From Clostridia bacterium (GTDB taxonomy: Bacteria; Bacillota; Clostridia; Oscillospirales; CAG-272): a DNA stretch of 64,000 nt. The notes below the pieces were generated by a model. That model was not told the DNA's origin. It did not search any database and saw nothing but the letters and a program-made list of their open reading frames with translations. Below are positions 1,432 through 46,167 of this stretch, piece after piece (positions within the stretch are counted from its first letter, which is position 1; every line of letters starts with the position of its first letter). The stretch spans positions 1 through 64,000 of the forward strand of contig JAFSYU010000060.1 of the NCBI GenBank assembly GCA_017443595.1, written 5' to 3'. The position numbers and the translations under genes were made by a program.

Positions 1432-1463
1432 CTAAATAAAGCATTATGAAAGGGAATATTAAA

Positions 1464-2360
1464 ATGAAAAAAATCTTCGGTATTATTCTTTGCGCGGTCA
1501 TGATCATTGCGGCGGCAGTTCCCGCTTACGCGGCGGTCAGAAGCTTTATTGCCGCGGATCTTGTTGACGGCAAACTCAACATAGTTGTGGACGGCGGCCT
1601 TGAAAAACTGGAAGCCTGTGCGGGCGACACGGTTGACGTACAGATCACTTTCAAGAAAAACAAGACCATAAGCTCGGCAAAGATCTTACTTACGTTTGAT
1701 AAAAACCTCTCCGTAGTAACGGAAAAAGATAAAAACGAAAACATTGTACCCAAAGTCAAATTTGATATAGATACAAAGCAGACGGACGGTTCGGAACAGA
1801 CCTGGGCAACGCTTTACGCGGACAAAAACCAGCTGCTCCTCAACTGGCTCACAGCTCTCGGCGAAGTTAAGGGTGACGTCGTTTACGCTACCGTGACCTT
1901 CAAAGTATCCGACAAGGCGGAAGTCGGCAAGCTCCTTGCCGTTACCGCGGAAGCCGACGCGGAAGATATTTACGATAAAGACGTTAAGAACACCGCTTTC
2001 AATATAGTGGACGGCGGCGTGACCGTAATTGAAAAAACGGTAGAGACCGATACGGAGACCGATAACGGCACCGATACGGAACCCGGCACCGACACAGATA
2101 TAACGACCGATACCGAGCCGACAAGCGATACGGAACCTGAAAGCGATACCGAGCCGATAGGTACGGATACAGAACCGAAGGAAGTCCTTAAGGGCGACTG
2201 CGACGGCAACGGCGAAGTCAACAACAAAGACGTTGTTACGCTGTTCAGATACGTTTCCGGCAACGACAAAGTCGAAGACGAAAGCGCGTATGATTTCAAC
2301 GGTGACAAAGAAGTAAACAACAAAGACGTTGTTGAACTGTTCCGTTACGTAAGCCAATAA
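1464..2360 (+). CDS. Secreted cohesin-domain protein with C-terminal type I dockerin
   Basis: The start is the ATG at 1464 rather than the one at 1446: AAAGGGA sits 8 bases before it, and the protein then begins with a standard signal peptide (MKKIFGIILC... AYAA). After the signal comes a cohesin-like beta-sandwich of roughly 160 residues (CAGDTVDVQITFKKN, ILLTFDKNLSV, VVYATVTFKVSD). A Thr/Asp/Glu/Pro linker with TDTEP repeats follows, then a dockerin with two Ca-binding repeats, GDCDGNGEVNNKDVV and DFNGDKEVNNKDVV, each followed by an (L)FRYVS helix. Cohesins bind dockerins in cellulosomes, so one chain with both could self-assemble or act as an adaptor; that role is inferred. It is monocistronic, between its own promoter and terminator. 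Confidence 0.85.
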   Translation: MKKIFGIILCAVMIIAAAVPAYAAVRSFIAADLVDGKLNIVVDGGLEKLEACAGDTVDVQITFKKNKTISSAKILLTFDKNLSVVTEKDKNENIVPKVKFDIDTKQTDGSEQTWATLYADKNQLLLNWLTALGEVKGDVVYATVTFKVSDKAEVGKLLAVTAEADAEDIYDKDVKNTAFNIVDGGVTVIEKTVETDTETDNGTDTEPGTDTDITTDTEPTSDTEPESDTEPIGTDTEPKEVLKGDCDGNGEVNNKDVVTLFRYVSGNDKVEDESAYDFNGDKEVNNKDVVELFRYVSQ

Positions 2361-2572: not shown

Positions 2573-4078
2573 TCAGAACGTCATATTTTCCATATATTCC
2601 TCGGCGAATACGGGATCGGCGGCAAGCTCCGCCGTCTTTATGCTCCGCGCGACAGCCTCCGATTCGTCAAGAAGAGAAGAGCATAAAAGCATAGCCGACG
2701 CGCCGGCAAGCGACGCGTTGCCGAGCACCTTGACGCACCCCGTCATCTCGTCCGGAAACAGACCTATCCTGCCCGCGTTTTTAACGTCAAGATAACTGCC
2801 GAAGCCGCCGGCGATATAAAACCTTTCAATATCCGAAAAAGAAATGCCCGCGTGCGACAAAAGCGTTTTTATTCCCGCGTGTATCGCGCTTTTTGCAAGC
2901 TGCACCGCGCGTATATCCGCCTGCGTTATGACTACGGGCGGGATGATCACAGCCGGGTCGTCCTCCATATATCCCGTCTCGTCTATCGCGTCGACCTCGA
3001 GTAAGGCGGCGACTGCGTCAACTATTCCGCTGCCGCATATGCCGACGGGCTTTCCGCCGCCTATGACGTGCGTTTCAAGCTTACCGTCCTTCACGCTTAC
3101 GCGGTCTACTGCTCCGTCCGAGCCGCTCATACCCATACTTATACCCGCGCCTTCAAACGCCGGTCCAGCCGCCGTTGAGCAGGCGTAAAGCTCGTTTTTG
3201 CGTTTCAACACCGTTTCGCCGTTCGTGCCTATGTCGGTCAGGACGGCGTTTTTTTCATTTTTATATATCTGCGACGACATAACAGCGCACGTTATATCCG
3301 CGCCCACAAATGCCGATATGCAGCGCGGCAGATAAACGGGCGTACTGCTGACCAAAACGTCAAGACCGAGGCTTTTTGCGGTCACGGTCTCGCCGAACAG
3401 GCGCTTCGCATCAAACGGCGCGTGTGTCAAAGGCTCCGTGTCCGTGCCGGTAAGAAACGACAGCATTACCGTGTTGCCGGCTATTACCGCGCCGTCTATA
3501 TCGGCGGTTTTTATGCCGGCGTCGGAAGACGCGGCGCGTATCATATCGCACAAAACCCCCCGTATTACCTCTGAGAGCTTCACAGCGGCGCCTTTGAGCG
3601 CAGCCTCCATCCTTGTGACCACGTCCGCTCCGTACGCTCTCTGCGGATTTAAAGCGCTTGCAGAGGCTATAAGCGCGCCGTTTTTATCATACAGCCGCAG
3701 CGCGACGGTCGTCGTGCCTATGTCAACGGCTATCCCGTATTTTTCAAAAAGCGGTTTAAGCTCTATCTGCGGCATATTGCCGTCCGCCTGTATTTCTGCT
3801 TTGCCGGACACGGCCGAAACGAATTCGCAGTCGCCTGTTATATACGTTTGGCACGCGAGGCGGACGCCGCTGTCAAGCTCTTTTACGGATAAAACCTCTT
3901 TTTCTCTGTCCGTCGGCGCGGATACGCAGCCGCGGCATATAACGCGGCATTTGCCGCATCTTCCGTGACCGCCGCAGACAAGACCCGTTAAACCGCGTTC
4001 GCGGAGAAAAACGCCGGCGTTGGCGCCTTCCTCCGCTTCGTATATTTTATTGTTGAATACTACCTTACACGTTTTCAT
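2573..4078 (-). CDS. RACo-like activator of corrinoid proteins (2Fe-2S ferredoxin plus ASKHA domain, DUF4445 type)
   Basis: This 501-residue protein matches reductive activators of corrinoid-dependent methyltransferases, which use ATP to reduce accidentally oxidised Co(II) back to Co(I). The N-terminal domain has a plant-type 2Fe-2S site: Cys35, Cys41, Cys44 (CGGHGRCGKC) and Cys76 (LACQT). A linker follows, then an ASKHA ATPase core beginning YGIAVDIGTTTVALRLYD near residue 115, with further phosphate-binding loops (LTDIGTNGE, GICGSGIVD, IAGGFGSYLD). It is the last gene of the corrinoid operon, 3 bp after the DUF2284 gene and three genes after the methyltransferase whose corrinoid partner it should serve. 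The assignment is strong; the exact partner is inferred from position. Confidence 0.88.
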   Translation of the reverse strand: MKTCKVVFNNKIYEAEEGANAGVFLRERGLTGLVCGGHGRCGKCRVICRGCVSAPTDREKEVLSVKELDSGVRLACQTYITGDCEFVSAVSGKAEIQADGNMPQIELKPLFEKYGIAVDIGTTTVALRLYDKNGALIASASALNPQRAYGADVVTRMEAALKGAAVKLSEVIRGVLCDMIRAASSDAGIKTADIDGAVIAGNTVMLSFLTGTDTEPLTHAPFDAKRLFGETVTAKSLGLDVLVSSTPVYLPRCISAFVGADITCAVMSSQIYKNEKNAVLTDIGTNGETVLKRKNELYACSTAAGPAFEGAGISMGMSGSDGAVDRVSVKDGKLETHVIGGGKPVGICGSGIVDAVAALLEVDAIDETGYMEDDPAVIIPPVVITQADIRAVQLAKSAIHAGIKTLLSHAGISFSDIERFYIAGGFGSYLDVKNAGRIGLFPDEMTGCVKVLGNASLAGASAMLLCSSLLDESEAVARSIKTAELAADPVFAEEYMENMTF

Positions 4079-4081
4079 TTT

Positions 4082-4636
4082 TCAAATGTCGAACAGCACG
4101 GCGCCGAAATAAGTCACCGTGTTTACACCGTTTATGTATTTCATCCCGGCAGACTCGGCGAGTTTTGATACGTTTACGCCGTACGCTTCAAGAGACGGCG
4201 TTGCTTTACCGGGATTCCTGCACGGCTCGCCCGTCGCTTTAGCGCACACCTCGCACAGCCTGCAGCCGCCCGCGCCTAAAAACAGTTTTCTTTTGAGATC
4301 CACGTTTTCAAGCTCTTTTCTTACGTTGAGCATCAGCTTGTGATGCTTGAATGCCGCTTCCGCCATTCCCTCAAAATCATAGCTGTCCTCAAGCGTGTTC
4401 ACGCTTTGATAAACGAGAATGTATTGATATGAATGAAGTTCACAAATAAGCTCGTTTATGTCGCCGGCGTCCGGCGGACACATCCAGTTTTTGCCGTAAT
4501 TACCGCAGACGTTTTTTTCGCAGAGCGTGCGAAAATAAGTGTCGGTCACAACGTCCGACGTCGGTATGACGGAGGCTTTATAAGCGCCGTTTGATAAGGC
4601 GACGTTTGATAAGTATGTAAACCGGTCCCGCATCAC
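4082..4636 (-). CDS. DUF2284 cysteine-rich putative metal-binding protein
   Basis: A 184-residue cytosolic protein with the cysteine pattern of DUF2284: CEKNVCGNYGKNWMCPPD near residues 38-56, and CRLCEVCAKATGEPCRNPG around residues 122-142. The spacing suggests metal or Fe-S ligation. No enzyme activity is established for the family that I can name. The start codon overlaps the stop of the corrinoid protein gene by 4 bp (ATGA), so translation is coupled, and the RACo-like gene follows after 3 bp. Inference: an accessory redox or metal protein for the corrinoid system. Confidence 0.8.
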   Translation of the reverse strand: MMRDRFTYLSNVALSNGAYKASVIPTSDVVTDTYFRTLCEKNVCGNYGKNWMCPPDAGDINELICELHSYQYILVYQSVNTLEDSYDFEGMAEAAFKHHKLMLNVRKELENVDLKRKLFLGAGGCRLCEVCAKATGEPCRNPGKATPSLEAYGVNVSKLAESAGMKYINGVNTVTYFGAVLFDI

Positions 4637-5274
4637 TGCATGGCAAGACAGAACTGTACAGCCGCGTCCGCACAGGAAGCCGCGTCCGGCGTGTAGCAGT
4701 CCGCGCCTATCTGATCGCAGAACGCCTGGCTCACGGGCGCGCCGCCTATCATTATTTTGACCTTGTCGCGTATGCCGGCTTCCTCGGCTTTTTTAACGAC
4801 TTCGCCCATGACGCCCATGGTGGTGGTCAAAAGAGCGGAGCAGCATATTATCTGGCAGTTCTGCTCAACAGCTGTGTTTACGAAAGTGTCGGGAGAAACG
4901 TCTACGCCTAAGTCGATGACCTCAAGCCCCTTGCCCTCGAGCATCATTTTTACCAGGTTTTTGCCTATGTCGTGCAGATCGCCCTGCACCGTACCGAGAC
5001 ACACCTTGCCGACGGCTTTGACACCGGCTTTTTCAAGATACGGCTTTAACACCTGCGCGCCCATGTTCATCGCGCGCGCGGCGACGAGCACCTCGGGCAC
5101 GTAGACTTCGTTATTCTTGAATTTTTCGCCTATGATGTTCATGCCTGGAAGCATGCCTTCTTTAAGCACTGTTTCCGGCGGTATCCCCTCGTCAACAGCC
5201 TGCTGTACGAGTTCTTTTACTGCTTTTGCCTTACCGTGCTGAAGGTTATCGGAAATTTCTTCTAATATGCTCAT
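4633..5274 (-). CDS. Cobalamin-binding methyltransferase corrinoid protein (MtbC/MtaC-like)
   Basis: At 213 residues this has the classic two-domain layout: a helical cap (residues about 1-88, MLPGMNIIGEKFKNNEVYVP) and a Rossmann B12 domain. The B12 domain carries the His-on signature D99-L-H101-D-I-G104 (GDLHDIGKNLV), then GLEVIDLGVDVSP and CSALLTTTMG, and a C-terminal IGGAPVS loop. The protein carries the methyl group between a substrate-specific methyltransferase and the final acceptor. The ATG is preceded by AAGGAGA. A GC-rich repeat occupies the 137-bp gap to the preceding methyltransferase gene; DUF2284 and the activator lie downstream. Confidence 0.92.
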   Translation of the reverse strand: MSILEEISDNLQHGKAKAVKELVQQAVDEGIPPETVLKEGMLPGMNIIGEKFKNNEVYVPEVLVAARAMNMGAQVLKPYLEKAGVKAVGKVCLGTVQGDLHDIGKNLVKMMLEGKGLEVIDLGVDVSPDTFVNTAVEQNCQIICCSALLTTTMGVMGEVVKKAEEAGIRDKVKIMIGGAPVSQAFCDQIGADCYTPDAASCADAAVQFCLAMQ

Positions 5275-5285
5275 AGTTTCTCCTT

Positions 5286-5380
5286 TTTTGGGGGTTCCCC
5301 CGCCCCCCTATCCACCCCCAAACCCCCGCCTCCCCCCATTACAAACGGGGCTTTTGGGGACGGGCGATCAATGATCGCCC
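5286..5380. repeat. GC-rich dispersed repeat inside the corrinoid operon
   Basis: The intergenic gap contains GGGGGTTCCCCCG, then CGCCCCCCTATCCACCCC, then AACGGGGCTTTT, then a palindrome GGGCGATCAATGATCGCCC (5361-5379). The first three blocks recur in the same order at 60472-60578. The repeat lies in the leader of the corrinoid protein gene on the minus strand and could fold into strong hairpins that modulate read-through. No reading frame is apparent. Confidence 0.75.
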
Positions 5381-5411
5381 CTACGGGGATTAACAGGGTT
5401 ATATGTGTTAT

Positions 5412-6257
5412 TTAAAGCAGTTTCTTTATCTCTTTTATATATTCCGCGTCCGATCCGCAGCAGCCGCCTATGTACGATACGTATTCAAGCGCGGGTTTTA
5501 TATCGGCGGCAAACTGCTGCGCCGTATACGCCACAGCGGTCGATCCGTCCTCACTTAAGATCGGCTTTCCGGCGTTCGGCTTGAACAAAAGCGGCAGATC
5601 CGTTTTTTCGGAAAATTCTTTTATTATAGGCAGAGCGAGATCCGGGCCGAGCGAGCAGTTCAAGCCAATCGCATCTATACCGAGAGGTGCGAGCGTGTCG
5701 ATCGTATCCTGCACGGAGTTGCCGAACATCGTTTTTCCGCTTTTTTCAAACGTCATGGAGCACATTACGGGCAGACCGTATTTTTTGGCTTCCACGGTCG
5801 CCACGCGCATCATTTCAAGATCCATGAACGTCTGTATAAGGATCATATCCGCGCCGGCGCCGACGCCGGCGTCAAGCATTTCTCTGTATATTTCCGCGCA
5901 CTCGTCTTCTTCCATATCGCCGTAAGGCTCGAGCAGCTGCATGAGCGGACCGAGCGAAAGGCAGAGCTTTACGCCGGTGCCTTCAAGCACTTTTTTCCCG
6001 GCTTTCACGCCTGCGGCTACCACGTCGGCGGCGGTATACGGTGAAGAGCGTTTTACCGCGGGTCCGTTTGCGCCGAAGGTGTTTGCAAGTATTATCTCAC
6101 ATCCGGCTTCAAGATATCTTCTTGTCAGCTCTTCAACAAATTCCGGATGTTCAATATTGTATTTCCAGACAGGCTCTTTTTTTACGCCGTTAGCCTCGGC
6201 TATTCCCCATAAAGTAGTACCGACAGCGCCGTCCATAAGCGTTATTTTTCTTTTCAT
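5412..6257 (-). CDS. Homocysteine S-methyltransferase family protein
   Basis: A 281-residue TIM-barrel protein of the BHMT/MmuM/MetH-N-terminal family. Characteristic segments are MDGAVGTTLWG near the N-terminus, EAGCEIILANTFGAN, GLNCSLGPD (first zinc Cys) and IGGCCGSDAEY near the C-terminus (the Cys pair of the zinc site). The family transfers a methyl group to homocysteine to make methionine. The gene lies directly upstream of the corrinoid protein, so it may act like the MetH N-terminal domain with a separate B12 subunit, or start from another methyl donor. GGAGG is 6 bases before the ATG. The acceptor role is known for the family; coupling to this corrinoid protein is inferred. Confidence 0.85.
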   Translation of the reverse strand: MKRKITLMDGAVGTTLWGIAEANGVKKEPVWKYNIEHPEFVEELTRRYLEAGCEIILANTFGANGPAVKRSSPYTAADVVAAGVKAGKKVLEGTGVKLCLSLGPLMQLLEPYGDMEEDECAEIYREMLDAGVGAGADMILIQTFMDLEMMRVATVEAKKYGLPVMCSMTFEKSGKTMFGNSVQDTIDTLAPLGIDAIGLNCSLGPDLALPIIKEFSEKTDLPLLFKPNAGKPILSEDGSTAVAYTAQQFAADIKPALEYVSYIGGCCGSDAEYIKEIKKLL

Positions 6258-6270
6258 ACGATCCTCCGGT

Positions 6271-7914
6271 CTATACGGTTTTTATTATTTTTCCGGCGGT
6301 CACGCCGCCTTTGTTGTACGCATCGACAGTCACTTTGTATTTAACGCCGTTTATAAGACTTCTTATTTCGGCTTTAGTACCATTTATTATCTGATACTGC
6401 GTGTATAATTCGGCTTCATTCACGCCGAAGCGGACGAAATATCCCACAGCGTCCGGTATCTTATCCCACGTCACAGTCATATTTCTTTCGTCCTTGTCCC
6501 GTATCGCGGTAAATTCCGGCGCGCTTTGCGGTGCTTTGCCGTCGGACGGTCCGAATACGCGCAGTCCCGATACGCTGAATCTCCCGCCCGCGGGGAATTC
6601 CCCGTGATTCGTAAGCCTGATGTATCTGAAGCCTTCGTTTTCAAATTCAAAATACTCGTGCGGAAGATCCTCCGTATTATCGCGCTTATCGACAAGGATT
6701 CTCCAGACTTCGCCGTCGTCGGACGCCTCAAGCGTGTATTTATATGAAAATCCGTTTTCGCGTCCCTCGCAGGGCGTTATATCCGTATCGGCGAAATTGA
6801 TCTGAACGGACGATACGGCGTATTTTTTGCCGAGGTCGGCTTCTATTTGTTCGCCCGCCGCGCCGGTTTTCGCGCTCCACCACGTTTTCATATTCTCGTC
6901 AAACACAAGCTCGGGCTTGTGTCTGCCGTCAACCACAGACGAAGCCTTGACTTTCGCGTTATATGATAAAAGACTTAAACCCGCGTCCGCCTGCTCAAAC
7001 GGGTTTTTCGTTTCGTGCGGGAAAAACATGGGGTAATCGCCGCGCAGCGTGTTCGTGTAAAGCCGTCCGTCTATTATTTTCACGGGAAAAAGCGCAAGGC
7101 GGCGCTCGAACATGTGATTAACGCTTACCGACGTCGTATCCATTTTCCACAGATTTCCGTTTACGTCTTCAAACAGGCAGCCGTGACCCGCGCCGCGCAT
7201 GAAGCCGGTAGATTTGAACACGGTCGGACTGTTGTCGCAGTTTTCAAACGGACCCATGGGAGAGTCTGATACGGCGACGCCGTCGCAGTACGTGGAAAAC
7301 TCCGTCCCCGGCGTTGCGTACGTGAGATAATATTTGCCGTTTATCTTATTGACCCACGCGCCTTCAAGGCTCGGGCGGCGCTCAATTTCGTTGTTGTCGC
7401 CGCAGCGGTCGTAGCCGCGGTTTTGATAATCCGAATAAAACACTGGAACGGGACCTTCAAGCACGGCGAAGCCGTTATCGGGATCGAGCTTTGAGCAGTG
7501 GATCGAATAATCGCCCAGGCCCTCGTAAATATAGACCGAGCCGTCGTCGTCAAGCAGGAACGCCGGGTCGTGCCATTCGTAAGGGCGGCCGATGTTCACC
7601 CACGAATCCGGATCGAACGGGTCGTCCGAATATAAAACGCTGCCGCCCTGGCTGTGCGTTATATACATCCGCTCGCCTATAACGAGCGTCGCAGGCGCGA
7701 AAAGCGCGAATTCCGGCTGCTTTTGCAGATCGACTTTTATAAAATCCCAGTTCACGAGATCGTCAGATATCCAGTAGCCCGAGCCGTGCGATGCGAACAG
7801 GAAGTATTTATCCTTGTATCGCACTACGGCGGGATCGGCGGATTCGCGCCCGTTGTAGCCGCACTGATACTGATAATTTATGTTTACGGGATTGCAGAAC
7901 GTGCGCTTTTTCAT
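6271..7914 (-). CDS. Intracellular GH43-type glycosidase with F5/8C carbohydrate-binding and Fn3-like domains
   Basis: A 547-residue protein with no signal peptide. The five-bladed propeller of GH43 fills about residues 1-300, with likely catalytic base Asp27 (ESADPAVV), pKa modulator Asp116 (WHDPAFL) and general acid Glu184 (SLEGAWVNK). A discoidin-like F5/8C domain follows (about 325-455: VVDGRHKPELVFDENMKTWW, FRYIRLTNHGEFP) and then a fibronectin type III-like end (MTVTWDKIPDAVGYFVRFG). GH43 enzymes act on arabinose- or xylose-containing glycans. Its start overlaps the stop of the upstream UroD-type gene by 4 bp, so it is part of the methyl-transfer operon. The link between glycosidase and demethylation is inference. 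Confidence 0.85.
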   Translation of the reverse strand: MKKRTFCNPVNINYQYQCGYNGRESADPAVVRYKDKYFLFASHGSGYWISDDLVNWDFIKVDLQKQPEFALFAPATLVIGERMYITHSQGGSVLYSDDPFDPDSWVNIGRPYEWHDPAFLLDDDGSVYIYEGLGDYSIHCSKLDPDNGFAVLEGPVPVFYSDYQNRGYDRCGDNNEIERRPSLEGAWVNKINGKYYLTYATPGTEFSTYCDGVAVSDSPMGPFENCDNSPTVFKSTGFMRGAGHGCLFEDVNGNLWKMDTTSVSVNHMFERRLALFPVKIIDGRLYTNTLRGDYPMFFPHETKNPFEQADAGLSLLSYNAKVKASSVVDGRHKPELVFDENMKTWWSAKTGAAGEQIEADLGKKYAVSSVQINFADTDITPCEGRENGFSYKYTLEASDDGEVWRILVDKRDNTEDLPHEYFEFENEGFRYIRLTNHGEFPAGGRFSVSGLRVFGPSDGKAPQSAPEFTAIRDKDERNMTVTWDKIPDAVGYFVRFGVNEAELYTQYQIINGTKAEIRSLINGVKYKVTVDAYNKGGVTAGKIIKTV

Positions 7915-9029
7915 ATCGTTATTTTCTTGATCTCTTCCGCGTAATACTGCACAAGTTCAAATTTTGTTCCCGGCATAAGTCTGTGGTCGGGGCAGGGAAT
8001 AAAGCCGCCAAGCGACGCCAGACGCTTCATCCGTTCTATCTCTTTGTCAACCGCCGCTTTGTCAACGCGCAGCGCGGTCTTGTCCATACCGCCCACGCCT
8101 AAAACCTCTTTGCCGTATTTCTTTCTTGCCGACTCAAACTGGTCGCCCCAGACGCCGACCTCTATCGGAAACATCGTGTTGACGCCGTTTTGTACCCAGG
8201 TGTCAAGCAGTCTGTCCGTCACGCCGTCGCAGTCAAGCGAGATTATGTCTATGCCGTATTTGTGACACAGCTCTGTACGCTTTTTATAGTGTTTTGCACA
8301 TATTTCATCAAACAGTGAGGGGGAGATAAGCGGTCCGTTTTTGAAACAGATATCCTCCCAGTAGTGCGCAAAATCAAACTTCGCGCCGGTCTGAAGTATG
8401 GCTTCCGCACATTTGTACTGCATTTCGGCGTACGTGTCCACTATATCCGCGAAAAGCTCCTCGTCCTCGTCGTATATGAGATAGCTCATACCGGCGACAG
8501 TGCAGATATTGCGGATATTGCCCAAGACCGAACCGAGATGAAGTCCGACCGGTATATCGTAAGGTCTGTTATCGTTGAATTTCTTATAAAACTCAATATC
8601 AACGCGCTGTGGCGCGTACTGCATTTTAGGGCGGTAGTATTTTTCAAAACTCTCTCTGTCTTTTAACAGATAATCGTCTTCTGACGGTATGGACGTTATG
8701 CCCGGTTTGATCTTTTCTATAACTCCGTCGCCGTTTTGGATCCTTTGCGTGCCGTCCGGCAAAACTTCAATTACTTTTCTTTCAAATCCGGGCAAAAGGT
8801 GGTTGTTACTGCCGTACGTTCTGTAATAATTGAAATCCCAGCCTATGAGTTTGTCAAGCTCGCGTTCTTTTTCGGATCCGTCGTAATTGCCGACGGCAAG
8901 TTCAGCCGGTATTTTGCCAAGCTGTACCCATTCCGTCAAAAGCTCCGGCCAGTAGCCGAAATGTACGGCGGGCAATCTGTCTACCGGCTTGAAGTGAAGC
9001 AGAGCAAGCGCGCGTTCCCTGTTTGTCAT
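7911..9029 (-). CDS. UroD-family methyltransferase-like protein (MtaA/CmuA type)
   Basis: A 372-residue protein with the uroporphyrinogen decarboxylase fold as used by corrinoid:substrate methyltransferases. Visible hallmarks are the N-terminal MTNRERALALLHFKPVDRLP, ISLDCDGVTD in the middle, and LGVGGMDKTAL followed by GGFIPCPDHRLMP near the end (potential Cys/His zinc ligands). True heme-pathway HemE is unlikely because the neighbours are corrinoid proteins and no heme genes are present. The start is 3 bp from the paralogous gene upstream, with AAAGGA as ribosome binding site. Substrate unknown. Confidence 0.82.
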   Translation of the reverse strand: MTNRERALALLHFKPVDRLPAVHFGYWPELLTEWVQLGKIPAELAVGNYDGSEKERELDKLIGWDFNYYRTYGSNNHLLPGFERKVIEVLPDGTQRIQNGDGVIEKIKPGITSIPSEDDYLLKDRESFEKYYRPKMQYAPQRVDIEFYKKFNDNRPYDIPVGLHLGSVLGNIRNICTVAGMSYLIYDEDEELFADIVDTYAEMQYKCAEAILQTGAKFDFAHYWEDICFKNGPLISPSLFDEICAKHYKKRTELCHKYGIDIISLDCDGVTDRLLDTWVQNGVNTMFPIEVGVWGDQFESARKKYGKEVLGVGGMDKTALRVDKAAVDKEIERMKRLASLGGFIPCPDHRLMPGTKFELVQYYAEEIKKITI

Positions 9030-9032
9030 AAT

Positions 9033-10037
9033 TTATCCTTTTACTGCTTTTTCCGCGTATTCTTTAAGCATTTCAACGTAAATTCTGTATCTTTCAAGCG
9101 GCACGTCCGGCGGCGTCTGATGGTCGCAGCTCGGGATAAATCCGCCCGTTTTCATGACCGGCAAAAGCCGCTCAAATTCACCGCGCATATCGTCAACTCC
9201 GCGGCGCATGGTCATTTTATCAAACGCGCCTATGAATATGAATTTCGGATAAAGCTCGCGCAGAGCCACAACGTCAACGCCCGCCTGCCGTTCAAGCGGA
9301 AGCACGCCTTCGATACCCGCGCGCATCAGCCACGGTATCATTTTGCTCACGTCTCCGTCCGTGTCGACAATGACCTTTGTTCCGTGGGCTTTTATGTAAG
9401 GCACTATTTTTTCGTAGTAGGGAAGTAAGAATTCGTCAAAGCTGTCCTCGGAGATCATCGGGCCGTTGTTGTAGCTCATATCTTCTCCGAAAGTCATAAA
9501 GTCCGGCGTAATGACCGCATACATTTTTTCAAGCAGTTTGAGCTGGAAATCCGCAAGATCGTCTAACATCCTGTGATATAATTCCGGCTGATCGTAGAAG
9601 GAATAAAGGTGATTTTCAATGCCTAAGATAGTGCGCGGGAACCAGAAACCGCCGTCAAGCGAAAACCATACGGGATAATCTCCGTTATCGTGGCCGGCTT
9701 TCAGCGTTTTCATGACCTCTATATGAGCCTCGGCTTCTTCAAGCGGATAAAGATACGGAAGTATTTTTTCGTACTCTTCCTCGTCCTCGGCTATCGGACC
9801 GCCGTTGAAAGCGGGCTGCGGACAGTCTGATCTTCTGTGCGGGAACCAGAACTGATAATGCTGATCGAGCTTCAGATACGGCGCAACGTCATGAAAACCG
9901 AGGGTGTCCGGCAGACCCTGTTTCTGCCACTCCATAATAGTTCTGTCCCACCACCAGGACGCCCACTCTATTGCCGGAAGTCTGTCGTCCGGCAGGGTGT
10001 TGTTGAAAACCGCGGTAAATCTTTCCCTGCTTTTCAT
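9033..10037 (-). CDS. UroD-family methyltransferase-like protein, first gene of the corrinoid operon
   Basis: A 334-residue paralogue of the next gene. It begins MKSRERFTAVFNNTLPDDRLP and has VIVDTDGDVSKM, then IGAFDKMTMRRG and GGFIPSCDHQTPP near the C-terminus, all UroD-fold landmarks. Two divergent UroD-type proteins side by side suggest either two substrates or a heteromeric pair. An AAGGGA ribosome binding site lies 8-9 bases before the ATG at 10037, and a good promoter lies about 30 bases further upstream. No cobalamin riboswitch fits in this short leader. Function by family and context only. Confidence 0.8.
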   Translation of the reverse strand: MKSRERFTAVFNNTLPDDRLPAIEWASWWWDRTIMEWQKQGLPDTLGFHDVAPYLKLDQHYQFWFPHRRSDCPQPAFNGGPIAEDEEEYEKILPYLYPLEEAEAHIEVMKTLKAGHDNGDYPVWFSLDGGFWFPRTILGIENHLYSFYDQPELYHRMLDDLADFQLKLLEKMYAVITPDFMTFGEDMSYNNGPMISEDSFDEFLLPYYEKIVPYIKAHGTKVIVDTDGDVSKMIPWLMRAGIEGVLPLERQAGVDVVALRELYPKFIFIGAFDKMTMRRGVDDMRGEFERLLPVMKTGGFIPSCDHQTPPDVPLERYRIYVEMLKEYAEKAVKG

Positions 10038-10065: not shown

Positions 10066-10094
10066 ATTTTAACAGATTGAAAATATAAAATCAA
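10066..10094 (-). promoter_or_regulatory. Promoter of the corrinoid methyl-transfer operon
   Basis: Read on the minus strand: TTGATT (10089-10094), a 17-bp spacer and TAAAAT (10066-10071), about 29 bases upstream of the first ATG. It is back to back with the pyruvate kinase promoter. Confidence 0.65.
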
Positions 10095-11812: not shown

Positions 11813-12289
11813 ATGTATAGAGAAATGAGACGGCTCAAACAGCAGATAAGCGCAAATGAATGTATACGTGTGCTTAAAGAGCAGAAAAGAGGCGTTCTTT
11901 CAATGATTGGAGACGGCGGTTATCCTTACGGGATCCCGCTCGATCACTGGTATTCGGAAGAAGATAACGCGTTATATTTTCACTGTGCGAAAACCGGGCA
12001 TAAGATAGACGCCGTGACCGCTTGTGACAAGGTCAGTTACTGTGTTACGGATCAGGGGTACAGAAGAGAAGGCGAATGGGCTTTGAATATAAGCAGCGTA
12101 ATCGTATTCGGACGTATAAGTATAATTGACGATGAGAATATGAAAATGCAGATATGCAAAAATATCGCAAAGAAATTCACGGACGATGAGGATTATATTC
12201 AAAAAGAAATAAAAAGCTCTTTTCCGTCAGTGTGTTGTCTTAAACTTAAAATAGAGCATATGACCGGAAAGCTTGTCAACGAATCATAA
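11813..12289 (+). CDS. PNPOx-like flavin-binding protein (NimA-related)
   Basis: A 158-residue split-barrel protein of the pyridoxamine-phosphate-oxidase superfamily, in the branch of small FMN-binding proteins that includes 5-nitroimidazole reductase NimA. Landmarks: MRRLKQQISANECIRVLKEQ, RGVLSMIGDGGYPYGIPLDH, LYFHCAKTGHKIDAV and VSYCVTDQGYRREGEWA. Likely cytosolic, reducing a small substrate with FMN; the substrate is not predictable. GGAG precedes the ATG by 8 bases. It is the first gene of the run that continues with the DUF4838 lipoprotein 10 bp downstream, a pairing whose logic is unclear. Confidence 0.85.
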   Translation: MYREMRRLKQQISANECIRVLKEQKRGVLSMIGDGGYPYGIPLDHWYSEEDNALYFHCAKTGHKIDAVTACDKVSYCVTDQGYRREGEWALNISSVIVFGRISIIDDENMKMQICKNIAKKFTDDEDYIQKEIKSSFPSVCCLKLKIEHMTGKLVNES

Positions 12290-12299
12290 AGGTATAATT

Positions 12300-14165
12300 A
12301 TGTTTAAAAAACGGATAATATGCCTGATTTTAGCGCTTGCAATGATTATTTTGTCCGCGTGCACCGCGGCGGATGATACGGCGGCGGAAAGTCAAACGGA
12401 AAAAGTGATGACAGAAACTGAAACGGATATTGAAACGGAAACAGAGGCCGGGACGGAGGAAACCGAAATGAAATGGGAAGGCGCGCACGTTAAAAAACTG
12501 ACGGTAAACGGGATCGATATAAGCGAATATAAAGTCGTCTGCGAAAACAGCGACGTCAATATCGTTTTAAAACGCGCAAAGAACGATCTTATTTCATATA
12601 TACGGACCGCGACCGGGATAACGCTTGAAGAGGCCGGGGACGGCGCAAAAAGCGAACACGAGATATGCATAGGCGTTACCGACCGCGATACCGAAAAAAT
12701 CAAAGAAGAGCGGCAAAAGCTCATAAACAACGGCTATCTTATCTGTTTTGACGACGGAAGGCTTTATATCACGGGCAATACCGTCACCGGTACGTTATAC
12801 GGTGTATATTCTTTTCTTGAAGATAACGTCGGCTGCAGATTCTATTCGTCAACGTACGAGACCGTAAAATTTGCAAAAAGCATAGATATCCCGGCAGATA
12901 CTTTCAAAGCCTTTTCGCCTAAACTCATATACCGCGACCCGTACTGGTTCGATACGTTCACGCCCGCGTTTGCCGCAAAGCTGAAGATAAACGGCGCGGT
13001 GAACAGGACGATGAACGGATACGGCTCCTCGTACACTTACGCCGGACCTTTCGTTCACAGCCTGCCCTCGCTTGCCGGAACGGACAGAACGCCGAACGTC
13101 CAGCCGTGCCTTACGGACCCCGCAGTTTATGAAAAAGTGCTCGGCAACGTAAGAAAATACCTGAAAGAAAATCCAAGCGCCAAGATCGTATCAGTTTCGC
13201 AGAACGATTCATATCCGGACGGCCTCGGCTGTCAGTGTGAAAACTGCAAAAAGATAGACGAAGAAGAGGGCACGCCAATGGGCTCGCTCCTCACGTTCGT
13301 AAACAGGATAGCAAACGATATAAAAGACGATTATCCGAACGTTCTGGTGGATACGCTTGCGTACAGATACACGAGAAAAGCGCCGAAAAACATAAAGCCG
13401 GCGGATAACGTTATAATCCGTCTGTGTTCTATAGAATGCTGTTTTTCTCATCCGCTCGACTCGGACTGCGAGGCGAACAAAGCGTTTACCGCGGATATTG
13501 AAGAATGGTCAAAGATCTGCAAAAACCTGTTTGTCTGGGATTATACCACGGATTTTCTGTATTACGTAAACCCGTTTCCCAATCTTGACGTTCTGTACGA
13601 TAACGTAAGATATTTTACGTCTCATAACGTTATAGGTCTCTTCGAGCAGGGAAATTATCAGTCTATATCCGGCGAGTTCGGAGAGCTGCGCGCGTATCTT
13701 TTGGCAAAGCTGCTCTGGGATCCGGATATGAGTAGGGAAGAGTATTACAGCTACATGGACGATTTTCTGCAGGGCTATTACGGCGACGGTTGGGAATATA
13801 TACGCGAATATATAGACAAAATATGCAAAAACGCCGCAAATAACGATATAGGCATATACAGCGATATAAACACCGTTTTAGGCATAAAAAATATGAAAAC
13901 AAAAGAGCGCGTAAGCTATATCAACGAGCTTGAAGCGCTGTGGGACAAAGCGCTTGAGTTATCGGATGAAGAGCATTTTGCAAACGTGGAAAAATCGTCT
14001 TTGCAGATAAGATACGCGTCTTTGCTTATCAAATGGACCGCAAGTTCGCCTAAAAAACTGGAAGAGCTGCATAAATTGATGCAGAAGTACAATATAACCC
14101 ATTTCAGAGAGGGAGTAAAGACTCCGGAAGCTCCCGATTACAGTAAGAGCCTTTCAACGTGGTGA
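12300..14165 (+). CDS. DUF4838 lipoprotein, putative glycoside hydrolase-like
   Basis: The start at 12300 (after AAAGGT) gives a lipoprotein signal peptide with lipobox LSAC and Cys21; the earlier in-frame ATG at 12273 overlaps the previous gene and lacks this logic. A Glu/Thr linker follows, then an N-terminal domain like the GH20 beta-hexosaminidase alpha/beta domain (LISYIRTATGITLEE, NNGYLICFDDGRLYITGN, GTLYGVYSFLEDNVGCRFY). The DUF4838 TIM-barrel core comes next (IVSVSQNDS, CQCENCKKIDEEEGTPMG, VLVDTLAYRYTRKAPKNIKP, FVWDYTTDFLYYVNPFPNL, NVIGLFEQGNYQS). Surface-anchored, 621 residues. The family is associated with polysaccharide breakdown, but its activity is not settled. Confidence 0.85.
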   Translation: MFKKRIICLILALAMIILSACTAADDTAAESQTEKVMTETETDIETETEAGTEETEMKWEGAHVKKLTVNGIDISEYKVVCENSDVNIVLKRAKNDLISYIRTATGITLEEAGDGAKSEHEICIGVTDRDTEKIKEERQKLINNGYLICFDDGRLYITGNTVTGTLYGVYSFLEDNVGCRFYSSTYETVKFAKSIDIPADTFKAFSPKLIYRDPYWFDTFTPAFAAKLKINGAVNRTMNGYGSSYTYAGPFVHSLPSLAGTDRTPNVQPCLTDPAVYEKVLGNVRKYLKENPSAKIVSVSQNDSYPDGLGCQCENCKKIDEEEGTPMGSLLTFVNRIANDIKDDYPNVLVDTLAYRYTRKAPKNIKPADNVIIRLCSIECCFSHPLDSDCEANKAFTADIEEWSKICKNLFVWDYTTDFLYYVNPFPNLDVLYDNVRYFTSHNVIGLFEQGNYQSISGEFGELRAYLLAKLLWDPDMSREEYYSYMDDFLQGYYGDGWEYIREYIDKICKNAANNDIGIYSDINTVLGIKNMKTKERVSYINELEALWDKALELSDEEHFANVEKSSLQIRYASLLIKWTASSPKKLEELHKLMQKYNITHFREGVKTPEAPDYSKSLSTW

Positions 14166-14500: not shown

Positions 14501-15838
14501 ATGAAATACTTGATAGGTCTTGACATCGGTACTTCCGCCGTCAAGGGCGCGCTTGCGGCCGAGGACGGCAGAGTCATAAAAGTTACGGACAGAAAACTTA
14601 CATATATAACAGACGGCACGTTCAGACTGCTTGACCCGGATCATTTCTGTGAAACGTGCTTTGACGCAATAGCGGAGCTTGCCGCGGCGGCTGACGGAGC
14701 TATCGCCGCACTTTGCTGCTGCCACGCGTCGGGCAACCCTTTGTTTCTTGACAAAGACGGCAAGCCTTTGACGCGCATAATAGGCTGGCAGAGCGTTATA
14801 CCGTGGGAAGATATAAACGCCGTTTACACAAAAGAGGAACAAAACGCCTTTTACCGCACGGTCGGCTGGGGATTCTTCAACGGTATGCCCGCGGCTGATC
14901 TGGCTTACATAAAAATACACCGCCCGGACGTGCTTGAAAATACAAGTTTTTTATGCATGAGCGCGGAATATTTAAATCATAAAATAACGGGCAAATGGGG
15001 CATATCTCATTCAATGGGAACGCCGTCGTATCTTATGGATCAGGAAAAAGGCGTTTATAACACCGCCGTTCTTGAAAAATTCGGACTTTCCCCGGAAATG
15101 CTGCCGCCGGTATTTGAAAAAGGCACGGTTTTAGGCACCGTTTTGCCCGGTATGGCTGAAAAACTCGGGCTTTCCTCTGATACAAAGGTAGTTTTAGGCA
15201 GTTTCGATCATCCGTCCGGCGCGCTCGGCGCGGGCGTGCTTCAGCCCGGGCAGCTGCTTTTATCCTGCGGAACGTCGTGGGTGGAGCTTTTTCCGGTGCA
15301 GTCGCGGGAACACGCGTTATCCACCGGAGGTCTTGTCGACAGATTCGCCTTGAACGGCCCGAAGTGGTGCGTTATGAGTTCGCTTGAATCAATATCTGAT
15401 AAAATAGACGAGCGCAGAGATCACTTTTTCGGCTCCGTTCCGCACAAGTATTTCGACGGACTTGCAGGCGAGGCAAAACCGGGCAGCAACGGTCTTGTTA
15501 TTGACTTTACGGGCGAAGATTACAAACGCGCGGAAGGTCACGATAAGCGCGATATTGCGCGCGCGATACTGGAAGGCGCGGCAAGACTGCTAAAAAACAA
15601 CTTGAAAGATCTTGAAAAATGCGGGCTCAAAGCGGACAGCATTACCGCTATCGGCGGCATTACGAATTCAAAGATCGCTGTCGGCATAATTTCGGAAGTG
15701 CTGCAGCGTGAGATCAAAGTCGTAAACGGCCAGTCCGCGGGCGCGGTCGGCTCGTGTCTGCTCGGCGGTATGGGCATAGGACTGTATAAAAACGAAGCGG
15801 AGGCGTTTGGTGCAATGTCCTCGCATTTAAAGGTGTAA
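14501..15838 (+). CDS. FGGY-family carbohydrate kinase
   Basis: A 445-residue ASKHA sugar kinase related to xylulokinase and gluconokinase. It starts with the phosphate-1 motif MKYLIGLDIGTSAVKGALA. ILGWQ-like IIGWQSVIPWEDI, the substrate-region GSFDHPSGALGAG, the phosphate-2/adenosine motif LSCGTSWVELF, and a C-terminal ITAIGGITNSKI plus SAGAVGSCLLGG follow. It phosphorylates a sugar or sugar acid with ATP; the exact sugar cannot be read. It is followed after 2 bp by the SIS-domain isomerase, which would logically handle the phosphorylated product. Confidence 0.88.
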   Translation: MKYLIGLDIGTSAVKGALAAEDGRVIKVTDRKLTYITDGTFRLLDPDHFCETCFDAIAELAAAADGAIAALCCCHASGNPLFLDKDGKPLTRIIGWQSVIPWEDINAVYTKEEQNAFYRTVGWGFFNGMPAADLAYIKIHRPDVLENTSFLCMSAEYLNHKITGKWGISHSMGTPSYLMDQEKGVYNTAVLEKFGLSPEMLPPVFEKGTVLGTVLPGMAEKLGLSSDTKVVLGSFDHPSGALGAGVLQPGQLLLSCGTSWVELFPVQSREHALSTGGLVDRFALNGPKWCVMSSLESISDKIDERRDHFFGSVPHKYFDGLAGEAKPGSNGLVIDFTGEDYKRAEGHDKRDIARAILEGAARLLKNNLKDLEKCGLKADSITAIGGITNSKIAVGIISEVLQREIKVVNGQSAGAVGSCLLGGMGIGLYKNEAEAFGAMSSHLKV

Positions 15839-15840
15839 AA

Positions 15841-16434
15841 ATGAAAAAAGAAACAACAGAAATGGCAAAAAAAGCGTATATAACGGAGAGTGAATGTATA
15901 CGCGAGGCGGCTGAATATTTTGATACGGAAGCGTACGGAAAAGCGGTCGATCTGCTTATAAAAGCGGAGAGGATAGGCGCGTCCGGCTGCGGTCATTCCG
16001 GCATTTTATGTCAGCATTTCGCGCATCTTATGTGCTGCATAGAACAGCCCGCGAAGTTCATCTCGCCCGCCGAGGCGATACACGGCGGCACGGGCTTTTT
16101 GCAGAAAGGCGACGTTATGCTTTTCGCCTCGCGCGGCGGCAAGACCGCGGAGCTTTTGCCGATACTTGACATCTGCAAAAAGAAAGGCGTTAATATAATA
16201 ACCGTAACGGAAAATACGGATTCTCCGCTTGCAGCCGGCGCGGACGTTGTGTTAAAACAGCACGTCAACCGCGAGACGGACAGATATAACTGCCAGGGCA
16301 CGACGTCAACCACGTCGCTTGCCGTCATTTTCCACGTTTTACAGACGATGTTGATAGAAGAAACGGGATTTAAAAACGAACAGTTTGCCGTGATCCACCC
16401 CGGCGGCGCCGTGGGTGAGCGGCTTAACAAATAA
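15841..16434 (+). CDS. SIS-domain sugar-phosphate isomerase (KpsF/GutQ-like, no CBS domains)
   Basis: A 197-residue protein made of one SIS domain. ASGCGHSGILCQHFAHLM contains the phosphosugar-binding turn, AEAIHGGTGFLQKGDVMLFA and SRGGKTAELLPILDICKKKG are typical SIS strands, and the C-terminal HPGGAVGERL closely matches the HPGGALGRRL hallmark of arabinose-5-phosphate isomerases. The CBS pair of KpsF is absent. It probably interconverts a ketose and aldose phosphate made by the adjacent kinase; the specific substrate is inferred only. Confidence 0.85.
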   Translation: MKKETTEMAKKAYITESECIREAAEYFDTEAYGKAVDLLIKAERIGASGCGHSGILCQHFAHLMCCIEQPAKFISPAEAIHGGTGFLQKGDVMLFASRGGKTAELLPILDICKKKGVNIITVTENTDSPLAAGADVVLKQHVNRETDRYNCQGTTSTTSLAVIFHVLQTMLIEETGFKNEQFAVIHPGGAVGERLNK

Positions 16435-16453
16435 ACATTAAGGAGACAAAAAA

Positions 16454-17074
16454 ATGGAATTCAAGGTTTATCAAAAAGAGTTAGAGCTTCAGTCAAGAGG
16501 TTGGATACCCACCTTTCACGACGTATCAAAAGAGGTCATAGAGATAGTCAAAGCGTCCGGCGTAAAAAACGGAACGGTAACTATCGCGTCGCATCATACG
16601 ACGTGCTCCGTTATGATACAGGAGTGCAGCCACGATATAGACAGCTTTGATATCGAATATCTGCAGCACGATCTGCTCGATATCATGAGAAAAATGATAC
16701 CGGACTTTGAACAAGAGCATCAGTACCGCCACCCCGGTCCCATACATCTGCAGTTCGGACGCCACGTGGACGAGCCGGGCGACTTCACGAGCATGAACAC
16801 GGACGGACATCTGCGCTCCGTTTTCTTCGGCAGAAGCGAATGTATGACGATAAAGGACGGCGTGCTTGACGGCGGCGAATTCGCGCATATCTATTTCGTT
16901 GACTGGGATCACGTACGCGCCAGAAGAAGACAGCTCAATATAACCGTAATGGGCACGACCGAGGACGTCGAAGACAGAAAGTGGAACGACGGAAAAGTCA
17001 TAAACACCCTCCGCAAATACACGGACGAGGAAAAAGCTGACGACGTTCACTACACGCTGCAGCAGAAGAGATAA
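16454..17074 (+). CDS. YjbQ-family protein with extended C-terminus
   Basis: Matches the YjbQ/UPF0047 family (reported weak thiamine-phosphate-synthase-like activity): VTIASHHTTCSVMIQE, MIPDFEQEHQYRHP, NTDGHLRSVFFGRSECM, and DGGEFAHIYFVDWDHVRARR. Most family members I know are near 130-140 residues; this one has 206, with an inserted loop (HLQFGRHVDEPGDFTSM) and an extra polar tail after NITVMGT. It has AAGGAGA upstream and sits 19 bp after the SIS gene as last member of the operon. Its role beside a sugar kinase and isomerase is not known. Confidence 0.85.
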   Translation: MEFKVYQKELELQSRGWIPTFHDVSKEVIEIVKASGVKNGTVTIASHHTTCSVMIQECSHDIDSFDIEYLQHDLLDIMRKMIPDFEQEHQYRHPGPIHLQFGRHVDEPGDFTSMNTDGHLRSVFFGRSECMTIKDGVLDGGEFAHIYFVDWDHVRARRRQLNITVMGTTEDVEDRKWNDGKVINTLRKYTDEEKADDVHYTLQQKR

Positions 17075-26437: not shown

Positions 26438-29400
26438 ATGTTAAACAATTCATCAAAGAGCAATTTTATTAAAAGAAATGCGGTTAAAGCGATAACACTT
26501 GCGTTATCGTTTGTTTTCGTGTTTTCCGTTATAACCGCCTTTATAATAAATGCCGGAATGTCCGTCAAAGCGGAAGAGATCGCAAGAGAGTATAATATAC
26601 GCAGCGCTGCAGATCTTAAAGAATATTCAAGACAGTACAAACTCGGTTATAGAAATAAAAATGATGTTTTAAATATCTCGATCAATGAAGGTGATGTCGT
26701 TTCCGATGACGGATTTATCAGTATCGGAACGATCATGCAAAACGGAGTTTCGAGTCCTTATCCTTTTTCCGGTACTATCAACGTACCTACAGCAGGTGTT
26801 GACGTATTTCATTTGTTTGACTGTCCTTTATTTGACTATGTTTCAACCGATATGAAGATCACCGGCGCCGGGACAATAAAAATTATGCGTGAAAAGCTGC
26901 CGGAAACTCCGGCAGAAGGCGCGTTAACGCATGGCGCTCTTTTTGCAAATCACGTCGTTGCGGGAACAAGTGCTGCAAACTGGAGCATCTCTTTGCTCGC
27001 TTTAACCGGTAACGGTACTCAGTCAGAGTCGTTTGAAGGATTGATCGGCGATATTGAGAATAATGCAAACGTAACCATTACGTTTACCAATGAAGCACCG
27101 ATCAACGTTTCCGGTGAAGGAAACATAGGTTTGATCTGCGGCGCACTTGGAGAAGGCTCAACGCTTAACGTTACAACTTCGGGATCAGGCGCGAATATTT
27201 CCGTTACGTCGACCGGCGGTCACGCAGGCGGACTTGTCGGTGAAATGAAAAGCGGATCAACGCTTAAATTCAATTCCGCAAATAATTCAAAAGTTACAAG
27301 CGTAACGTCCGGTGCTTCAAAATACGCCGGCGGCGTTATCGGGTATGCTGATAATATAACGCTCCAATATGGTTCAGGGATAACGGATTACGCAGTTTCA
27401 GGCACGGTAATTGGTGGTATGGGAGCCGGCGGTGTTTTCGGATACTATAAAAACACGTCTTCACCCGCAACCTTTACGCTTGAAGATACTTTTGCAATCG
27501 CAAGCGGAATGAGTATTTCAAGCAATGCGAGCAGCGGATATACAGGCGGTGTTTTCGGACTTCTTGAAAATACCGGAGCTTCATTAACGTTTGACGGAAA
27601 TGATGAAAGCATTAACGTTAATCTGAATCAAGGTACATACCGCGGTGGTATATGCGGCGGATTCCAGACAAATGCTTTGACAAATACCTTTGAGGTATAT
27701 GACACAAATACAACGGTAAACGCATCCGGCGATTATTCCGCCGGTCTTGTAGGCGCACTTACGAATAACACGGCGGCATACGTAAATATCCACGACGTTA
27801 TATGTATGTCTAATAACGCATCGCTTGGTGCCGGAATTATAGGTACCGTCGGCAATAAAGGTTCATTTGTCGATATGACGGGTAATATAACCGTATCCTG
27901 CGCGTCGGATTGCAAGATCGATGCGGGGTTGATAAGCAATATGACTCAGGGCGTGTTGCGTATGAGTGGCGTTTTCAATCTTTCCGGATTCGTTAATAAA
28001 GACGCCGCCAGCGGTTATCTTGTCAAAGAGAGAGGCAGAGCGCTCGTATACGCTTTAGGAGACGGTAAAGGCACAAACAACGGCTGGACTTTCAAGCGTA
28101 ATACAGGTATCTCCATTGACGATATACATTCATGGGGCGAAGTTGTCCGTATGGATGGAACGATACTTAAAGAATCGGATCTTGTAACGGTTGATATGGA
28201 CGCGCATACCGTGACTGTTGCCGGCGCGGTAGAGACTATGAGTACGGTCACGGATTTTACAAAAACCGCGCTTAACATTTCTTTGAATACAGAAAACAAT
28301 ACCGGAACAGGAGCTTTACAGTTCAACTCAAGCAACGCAAGTTCAACTTTGCTCGGAAGTTCAAGTACACTCAAGCTTGGCGCCGATATAAGCCTTGCCG
28401 GTACGGGAATCACCGGTCTCACGCGAGATAATACGCGAGATAATGTAGATATCGGCGTATTGTTCAAAGGCACTTTTGACGGACAAAACCATACCTTGAC
28501 TTTTGCAACGGGTGAAAACTACGGTTTGAAGGAAGACGGAACTGCGCTTCCAGCCGGCAGTACCCAAGGCAATATTCATCAGCATACGTATAACGGACTT
28601 TTTGCAAAAACGTCCGGTGCTACTATCCAGAACGTCACGCTTTCCGGTAATTTCTATATAAATCAGACAACTGGTGACGTGCGTCTCGGCGGCGTGACCG
28701 CTTATGCGACAAACGGTCTGGAGATAAACAAAGTTACCGCCGATTTTAACGGAAGAATAAAAGTAAATAACAGCAGCGGATATTATGCCGGTGCCGTAGG
28801 CGTTGCCGCCGGATCGGGTCTGGACGTGGATATTATTGGCTCGTCAAACTTGCATCCGGTCTTTACTGATATTTCAACGACTGCCAGCCAGAGCCCCGCG
28901 TATTTCAGCGGCGCCATCGGGTATGTCGGAGGAAGTTCAGATCAGGACATTAATTTTGCATCTTCTACGCTAGGATTGACTTATAATAAAACGGGAAATG
29001 CAAACCGTGCGTCTTTGTTCGGTTGTGCGATTGGCAGCGTAGCAAACTGCGCTTATGCTAAAGACAGCCGTAAAATCAATTTGTCAACAATTACGACAGA
29101 TCTTACCGTCACCGGAGCAACAGCGCGTGACAGAGAAATCGGCGGTATACTCGGCGTTGACTGGTACGCCGCGGACGCAACGTTAAATGGCGTTACGGTA
29201 AACAGTAACATTACCGCAGCAGGCGATGCGGATTTCGGCGGTCTTGTACACGCCGCGACAGGTCGTTGGGACGTAAAGCAAATAGCGTTAACGTCTGCAG
29301 GATATAATCTTAGTTCAGCATCTGACTCTACGTTCGGATTTATTGCAAACAAAACGAGTGTTAACGGAGACAATAAAAGCGCACTGTATCTTGACGTTGA

Positions 29401-44319: not shown

Positions 44320-44371
44320 TACGTTGTGTGTAAAATTATATATTTTTTATCCTGCGCGTCACACCTTTATA

Positions 44372-44399
44372 TTGACAAAAGGATTTTATATGATATAAT
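44372..44399 (+). promoter_or_regulatory. Promoter of the 16-kb glycan/glucuronate operon
   Basis: Perfect TTGACA (44372-44377), a 16-bp spacer and TATAAT (44394-44399), extended by ATGA, about 29 bases before the preferred ATG. It is the only clear promoter I see before base 60359 on this strand. Confidence 0.82.
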
Positions 44400-44427
44400 G
44401 AATAAAAACAAACCGGAGGATACGGGA

Positions 44428-45867: not shown

Positions 45868-45870
45868 AAA

Positions 45871-46167
45871 ATGTCACTATTCGGGAAAAAATTCAAGCTT
45901 GATTACGGATATCAAAGAGACTTGTATAAAAGAGCAAAGGACGGTTACAGAGCCGGCTCGCACGTAAAACTTTACTATTGCGCCGTCGGCACGGATACCG
46001 ATTATTCGTTTTATTTAAACGACCAAAGATTAAACCCGCTCTACAGCGACCGTCACGGCTATATTATAAAATTCAAAATGCCGGATCATGATTCAAAGCT
46101 GCAGTGCAGGTCGGTAAACAGTATGTTTTATATGGAGAACGGACAAAAAGAAAATGAAAACATCTGA
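45871..46167 (+). CDS. Short hypothetical protein
   Basis: 98 residues (MSLFGKKFKLDYGYQRDLYK...), soluble, basic and Tyr-rich, with VKLYYCAVGTDTDYSFYLND in the middle and an acidic end. Three bases separate it from the DUF4832 stop, and its 3' end overlaps the next start by 14 bp. The ribosome binding site is weak, so it likely depends on translational coupling. No recognisable family. Confidence 0.6.
   Translation: MSLFGKKFKLDYGYQRDLYKRAKDGYRAGSHVKLYYCAVGTDTDYSFYLNDQRLNPLYSDRHGYIIKFKMPDHDSKLQCRSVNSMFYMENGQKENENI

Follow-up and report, generated by a model that had tools for sequence, protein, structure and literature searches.

A corrinoid demethylation operon with an embedded GH43 glycosidase in a CAG-272 bacterium and O-methyl sugars as its candidate substrates

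In the aromatic O-demethylases of acetogens (MtvABC, OdmABCD, and VdmABCD) and in the chloromethane system CdmBCA, a UroD-superfamily methyltransferase (MTI), a small corrinoid protein, and a RACo-type activator are clustered. Type 1 mlp clusters contain several UroD-superfamily proteins, a corrinoid protein, and an activase, with no folate methylase nearby; in that work, an H-C-C metal site was linked to sulfur or selenium substrates and its replacement by carboxylates to O-demethylases (Kountz and Balskus 2023, PMC10418091). A comparable operon was found at positions 2573–10037 of the window analyzed here, which comprises the first 64,000 nucleotides of contig JAFSYU010000060.1 (GCA_017443595.1) from a Clostridia bacterium of the Oscillospirales lineage CAG-272. 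The operon may remove methyl groups from plant-glycan O-methyl sugars in the cytoplasm by a corrinoid-dependent route, with the methyl group passed on to form methionine. The probability of this proposal as a whole was put at roughly 0.5.

Gene content and metal sites of the operon

The operon was composed of seven co-directional genes on the minus strand, and the open reading frames agreed in coordinates and strand with a first-pass annotation made from the sequence alone. That annotation had described seven tightly spaced genes; their number and strand were correct, whereas the spacing was not quite uniform. The intergenic distances were 3, −4, 137, 13, −4, and 3 nucleotides in ascending coordinates, with the 137-nucleotide gap between the HcyMT and corrinoid protein genes. 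The proteins were assigned to families by Pfam, which matched the earlier family assignment for every gene.

9033–10037, minus strand: UroD1, UroD-superfamily methyltransferase, probable substrate demethylase (MT1); Pfam URO-D 6.6e-17
7911–9029, minus strand: UroD2, UroD-superfamily methyltransferase, probable MT1; Pfam URO-D 2.5e-9
6271–7914, minus strand: GH43 glycosidase; Pfam GH43 2e-24, with F5/8 type C (CBM32-like) and Fn3 domains
5412–6257, minus strand: HcyMT, homocysteine S-methyltransferase domain protein, probable methyl acceptor enzyme (MT2); Pfam S-methyl_trans (PF02574) 6e-52
4633–5274, minus strand: corrinoid protein, MtgC/MtbC-like; Pfam B12-binding 3.8e-26 and B12-binding_2
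4082–4636, minus strand: DUF2284 predicted metal-binding protein; Pfam 1.9e-47
2573–4078, minus strand: RACo-type corrinoid reductive activator with an N-terminal 2Fe-2S domain; Pfam RACo_C_ter 4.7e-69, Raco_middle, and Fer2
10066–10094, minus strand: candidate sigma-70-like promoter with an extended −10 element, just upstream of UroD1; consensus scan only
2372–2396, no strand: strong stem-loop following RACo, probably a bidirectional terminator; consensus scan only

The operon thus contained a complete corrinoid set of methyltransferase proteins, corrinoid protein, and RACo. The earlier reading of a corrinoid methyl-transfer operon was borne out by these assignments; the mechanism class is solid, and the locus is almost certainly a corrinoid demethylation operon. 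The nearest NCBIfam model of the corrinoid protein was MtgC (1e-62, under the cut-off of that model), and the DxHxxG cobalamin-binding motif was present in the protein and in 58/58 relatives. The DUF2284 gene adjoined the corrinoid protein gene in a conserved manner and was found in most loci.

The metal sites of the UroD proteins were read from an alignment of 166 UroD-type proteins, at the three columns corresponding to the zinc ligands His, Cys, and Cys of MtaA and of UroD3, an MtaA-like protein. UroD3 carried H/C/C at these columns in 34/34 sequences and matched the MtaA-type structure 4ay7 (3.5e-17). In contrast, D/D/H occupied the columns in 72/72 relatives of UroD2 (here D266-x-D268 and H349) and in 33/35 relatives of UroD1 (here D225-x-D227 and H306). 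UroD1 and UroD2 therefore look like substrate demethylases, and this role is probable for both. The ligand-site reading is one that we infer, since some O-demethylases and CdmB work without any zinc (PMC13222342). UroD2 was the most conserved member of the module.

Sequence searches of the PDB with UroD1 and UroD2, singly and as profiles, gave no significant relative, so that fold comparison was needed. The AlphaFold model of UroD1 was confident, with a mean predicted local distance difference test score (pLDDT) of 92.3, and showed a UroD-superfamily barrel; its fold comparison (VIA) gave Z scores of 26.0 to UroD and 22.6 to the Methanosarcina mazei methyltransferase MtaA (4ay8). The UroD2 model was weak (pLDDT 63), and the best fold matches of this weak model were again UroD. 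In the TIGR01463 search, UroD1 scored 41 bits against a cut-off of 235, and UroD2 gave no match. UroD1 and UroD2 were the only URO-D family matches in the genome (2.48 Mb, 90% complete; all genome-wide statements rest on family searches). A true uroporphyrinogen decarboxylase of haem synthesis was set aside on the weak Pfam scores and the corrinoid operon, and a type 1 mlp cluster on the D/D/H site in place of H-C-C.

The GH43 protein began with MKKRTFCNPV, and its start overlapped the UroD2 stop by 4 bp. It had no signal peptide; this and the overlap with a methyltransferase stop had been noted in the first-pass annotation. Residues D27, D116, and E184, the Asp, Asp, Glu catalytic triad, appeared intact in an alignment to 3kst/4qqs.

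The methyl acceptor

The acceptor enzymes were counted in the 39 loci whose gene run included a corrinoid protein as well as RACo. UroD3 alone was present in 24, HcyMT alone in 4, neither in 11, and both in none. This mutual exclusion indicates that HcyMT fills the slot that an MtaA-type thiol methyltransferase, UroD3, occupies in other genera, and it favours HcyMT as the relay's second methyltransferase. HcyMT was a single-domain protein of 281 amino acids, and its zinc motif NCS...GGCCG was found in all full-length relatives.

The operon had been described as following the recipe of acetogens, and this part did not hold. Carbon monoxide dehydrogenase/acetyl-CoA synthase (CODH/ACS, PF03598) was not found in the genome or in 11 congeners. 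The only pterin-binding methyltransferase of the genome was part of a full-length MetH (902 amino acids), which adjoined MTHFR; MetE was not found in the genome, and Pfam gave no pterin-binding gene in the operon. Because a dedicated folate methyltransferase was lacking and HcyMT was encoded in the operon, homocysteine is the likelier of the two methyl acceptors that had been proposed, homocysteine and tetrahydrofolate, and is probably the acceptor used. Transfer to tetrahydrofolate would fit the FTHFS and MTHFR of the genome and a stand-alone 270-residue pterin-binding protein in some congeners, but it is very unlikely in view of the same gene content.

In the congener G007 (95% complete), neither MTHFR nor MetE nor any pterin-binding protein was found, and the HcyMT of the operon was the only S-methyl_trans protein. 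If the assembly is not misleading, G007 would depend on import of methionine or on its methylation through the operon. A weak MTHFR-like gene and the 270-residue pterin-binding protein occurred in some congeners (G001, G003, G006, G008, and G010); in several of these the two shared a contig, resembling partial Wood-Ljungdahl methyl branches.

Sugar genes and the substrate

The same genes were retained in the congeners, mostly at 75–90% identity, so the arrangement is not due to chance. The order UroD1-UroD2 was kept, and GH43 followed in G002, G004, G006, G007, and G010 and lay 5′ of HcyMT in G001; the GH43 orthologues of these six operons were 76–90% identical. The co-occurrence of GH43 with methyltransferases, on which the first-pass hypothesis leaned, was thus found when the gene order was sought in other genomes. 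As a part of the operon, GH43 was real and conserved within the genus and was absent from the operon beyond it.

Other glycosidases occurred in the operons of sister species. The G007 operon contained GH95, a further UroD, and GH43 as inserts. The G009 and G011 operons contained GH95, HcyMT, a cellulase-like protein (PF12876), the corrinoid protein, and an 847-residue lipoprotein, while the G010 operon had the cellulase-like protein (PF12876) plus GH43, and the G001 operon had GH3 at one end. The inserted glycosidases were apparently cytoplasmic by their N-termini, with the exception of the lipoprotein. Across the genus, the methyl-transfer genes thus form a fixed core to which the glycosidases are added as exchangeable modules. 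The presence of GH95, PF12876, and GH3 favours a glycan substrate.

Three further proteins were encoded in or beside these operons. The 847-residue lipoprotein (X847; L073 16355–18898, L031 3773–6316), with the N-terminus ...LSACTGS, had no match in Pfam or PDB and possibly represents a new glycosidase family. A 631-residue protein directly upstream of UroD1 (X631; L027 14911–16806, L075 2–1528) also had no Pfam or PDB match. X409 (L074 16345–17574; L113, L116, L120, L130, L146, and L150) adjoined the core, had conserved HCTP and YYGCCE motifs, and gave no Pfam match; it was initially a candidate for a novel sugar enzyme, which was dropped since its alignment resembles the UroD superfamily, and it looks like a divergent member of that superfamily.

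A scan of a genome collection with the UroD2 alignment gave 208 relatives. Almost all of the 80 listed were metagenome-assembled genomes of herbivore gut or rumen, from the rumen, cecum, colon, or rectum of cattle, yak, buffalo, sheep, goat, and deer, with few exceptions such as Eisenbergiella porci. The core outside the genus consisted of UroD2, the corrinoid protein, DUF2284, an acceptor enzyme, and RACo. Sugar genes were located within or directly beside this core in several loci. A GH106-type gene lay between UroD2 and UroD4 in L149. Uronate genes adjoined the core in two loci: a heparinase II/III-type lyase and a fusion of 2-keto-3-deoxy-6-phosphogluconate (KDPG) aldolase with a PfkB kinase in L105, and altronate dehydratase and a mannitol-dehydrogenase family protein in L166. 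GH127 and a transporter were found beside the core in L129, rhamnosidases in L143, and a sugar transporter and a sulfatase in L140. In L108 (7330–9966), an FGGY-SIS fusion and UPF0047 lay directly upstream of UroD2. The corresponding window genes were 62, 85, and 92% identical for FGGY, SIS, and UPF0047, respectively, and the UPF0047 adjoining UroD2 in L114 also showed 92% identity.

14501–17074, plus strand: FGGY kinase, SIS isomerase, and UPF0047 trio; Pfam, possible accessory sugar genes

In L139, L156, L157, and L159, a DUF5722 protein and a metallophosphatase-like gene were conserved upstream of the UroD core.

The window also contained a tight 16-gene operon (44326–60359, plus strand), which is a candidate operon for (4-O-methyl-)glucuronate utilization. 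It encoded the only genomic match to UxaC (55570–56877, 7.1e-131) and to the glucuronoyl-esterase model PF22244 (48863–49597, 3.7e-46). Judged by their sequences, the next genes were apparently mannonate dehydratase (UxuA), a short-chain dehydrogenase/reductase, KDPG aldolase, and 2-keto-3-deoxygluconate kinase; the operon also encoded a GH78-like protein along with several GFO/IDH and sugar isomerase-like genes. Glucuronoyl esterases act on 4-O-methyl-glucuronoyl esters. On account of this esterase, 4-O-methyl-glucuronate was the leading candidate among sugars in this genome, followed by 2-O-methyl-xylose or 2-O-methyl-fucose.

Elsewhere in the window, a secreted protein with a dockerin domain (1446–2360, plus strand) adjoined the operon end and hints at cellulosome-like parts. 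The gene at 12273–14165 (plus strand) encoded a lipoprotein that combined DUF4838 with a domain similar to the N-terminal one of GH67. An apparently secreted protein of 3415 amino acids was encoded at 26438–36685 (plus strand), preceded by three small signal-bearing genes.

Several observations weighed against the sugar reading. Most UroD2 operons outside the genus had no glycosidase, and GH43 was absent from all of them. Within the genus, the GH43 orthologue of G009 and G011 belonged to another cluster, made up of GH43, arabinofuranosidase-like, and FGGY-kinase genes, and GH43 also lay outside the operon in G051. GH115 was not found in the congeners searched and UxaC was not found in G007; both results weaken the case for 4-O-methyl-glucuronate as a universal substrate and make a single substrate for all unlikely. 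Carbohydrate genes made up about 8/29 annotated neighbours in the flanks and up to 5/25 in length-matched controls (E ≤ 1e-15), and the enrichment of the wide neighbourhood against distant control genes was not significant; the argument therefore rests on the intra-operon genes and the specific recurrent pairs. On the side of methionine, the MetH and MTHFR of the genome provide a route there besides the operon. With these points included, an O-methyl sugar is still somewhat favoured as the substrate.

Ferulate esterifies arabinose in grasses, and GH43 arabinofuranosidases target arabinose-rich, potentially feruloylated glycans. A real rival to the sugar reading is a methoxylated aromatic, such as ferulate freed from arabinose, or an O-methylated aglycone; the glycosidases would free the aromatic from sugars, and the methyl group would still pass to homocysteine. 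The characterized UroD-superfamily O-demethylases MtvB, OdmB, and VdmB use methoxyaromatics (PMC13222342), and aromatic O-demethylation in the gut is well documented (PMC12915777). However, the operons of the genus showed neither an esterase gene nor one for aromatic degradation, and the inserted or adjoining genes encoded GH95, GH106, GH127, FGGY/SIS, KDPG aldolase-kinase, and altronate dehydratase. The folate MTII and the Wood-Ljungdahl pathway, which accompany aromatic demethylases, were missing here. An aromatic substrate appears rather unlikely on this balance.

Slightly less likely again is that the glycosidases are passengers in a glycosidase-rich genus and that the module acts on a methylated amine, thiol, selenide, or methanol. 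The operons of other genera that lack glycosidases, the GH43 genes elsewhere in G009, G011, and G051, and the non-significant flank enrichment would fit such passengers. On the other hand, at least three glycosidase families lay between core genes in the genus, with 4-bp overlaps or short gaps, and GH43 was retained in the operon in six congeners. UroD1 and UroD2 did not have the H-C-C site of sulfur and selenium enzymes, and the MtaB- and MttB-type families for methanol and amines were not among the Pfam matches of the operon.

In the favoured sugar-demethylation reading, UroD2 together with UroD1 would act on an O-methylated sugar, or a short oligosaccharide, of plant cell-wall glycans and move its ether methyl group onto the Co(I) of the corrinoid protein. 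From the resulting methyl-Co(III), HcyMT would pass the methyl group to zinc-bound homocysteine to yield methionine, and RACo would return accidentally oxidized Co(II) to Co(I) at the expense of ATP. GH43 may trim imported oligosaccharides, exposing the methylated residue or removing its neighbours. As a whole, the first-pass annotation was partly supported: its core idea, demethylation of methylated sugars or plant glycan fragments, held, whereas its acetogen frame did not.

Plant cell walls commonly contain sugars with methyl ethers. A wider and tentative extension is that gut Clostridia might make methionine with methyl groups from the O-methyl sugars of plant fibre through the UroD/corrinoid/HcyMT relay, which in species such as G007 might supply all of the methyl groups for de novo methionine synthesis. 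If true, the anaerobic gut would have a route for completing the breakdown of methylated glycans, a recurrent gene module of herbivore-gut Clostridia would be explained, and a folate-independent source of methionine methyl groups would be added. No fitting case of corrinoid-dependent sugar demethylation was found in a literature collection of 5.39 million papers. To our knowledge, the only described sugar O-demethylation is the oxygen-dependent cytochrome P450 route of marine bacteria.

Comparison with described corrinoid systems

Compared with the aromatic O-demethylases of acetogens, the operon had no folate methyltransferase (MTII) and the genome had no CODH/ACS; HcyMT stood in the place of MTII, glycosidases were embedded, and two distant UroD proteins were present. 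The Mlp proteins, with their H-C-C zinc site, are interpreted as sulfur or selenium enzymes, and type 1 mlp clusters are recognized by at least two such MtaA-like proteins, whereas UroD1 and UroD2 carried D-D-H. In addition, the probable acceptor enzyme here was HcyMT, and no sulfur or selenium genes were seen. The corrinoid protein belonged to the same family as those of the glycine betaine, dimethylamine, and related systems (MtgC and MtbC); the MT1 of those systems is of the MttB/MtbB/MtgB type, whereas that of the operon was UroD-type. MetH shares with the operon a homocysteine-binding zinc domain and a cobalamin domain that pass a methyl group to homocysteine. In the operon these functions were on separate polypeptides without a folate domain, RACo took the place of S-adenosylmethionine-based reactivation, and the methyl group would come from an external compound through the UroD proteins.

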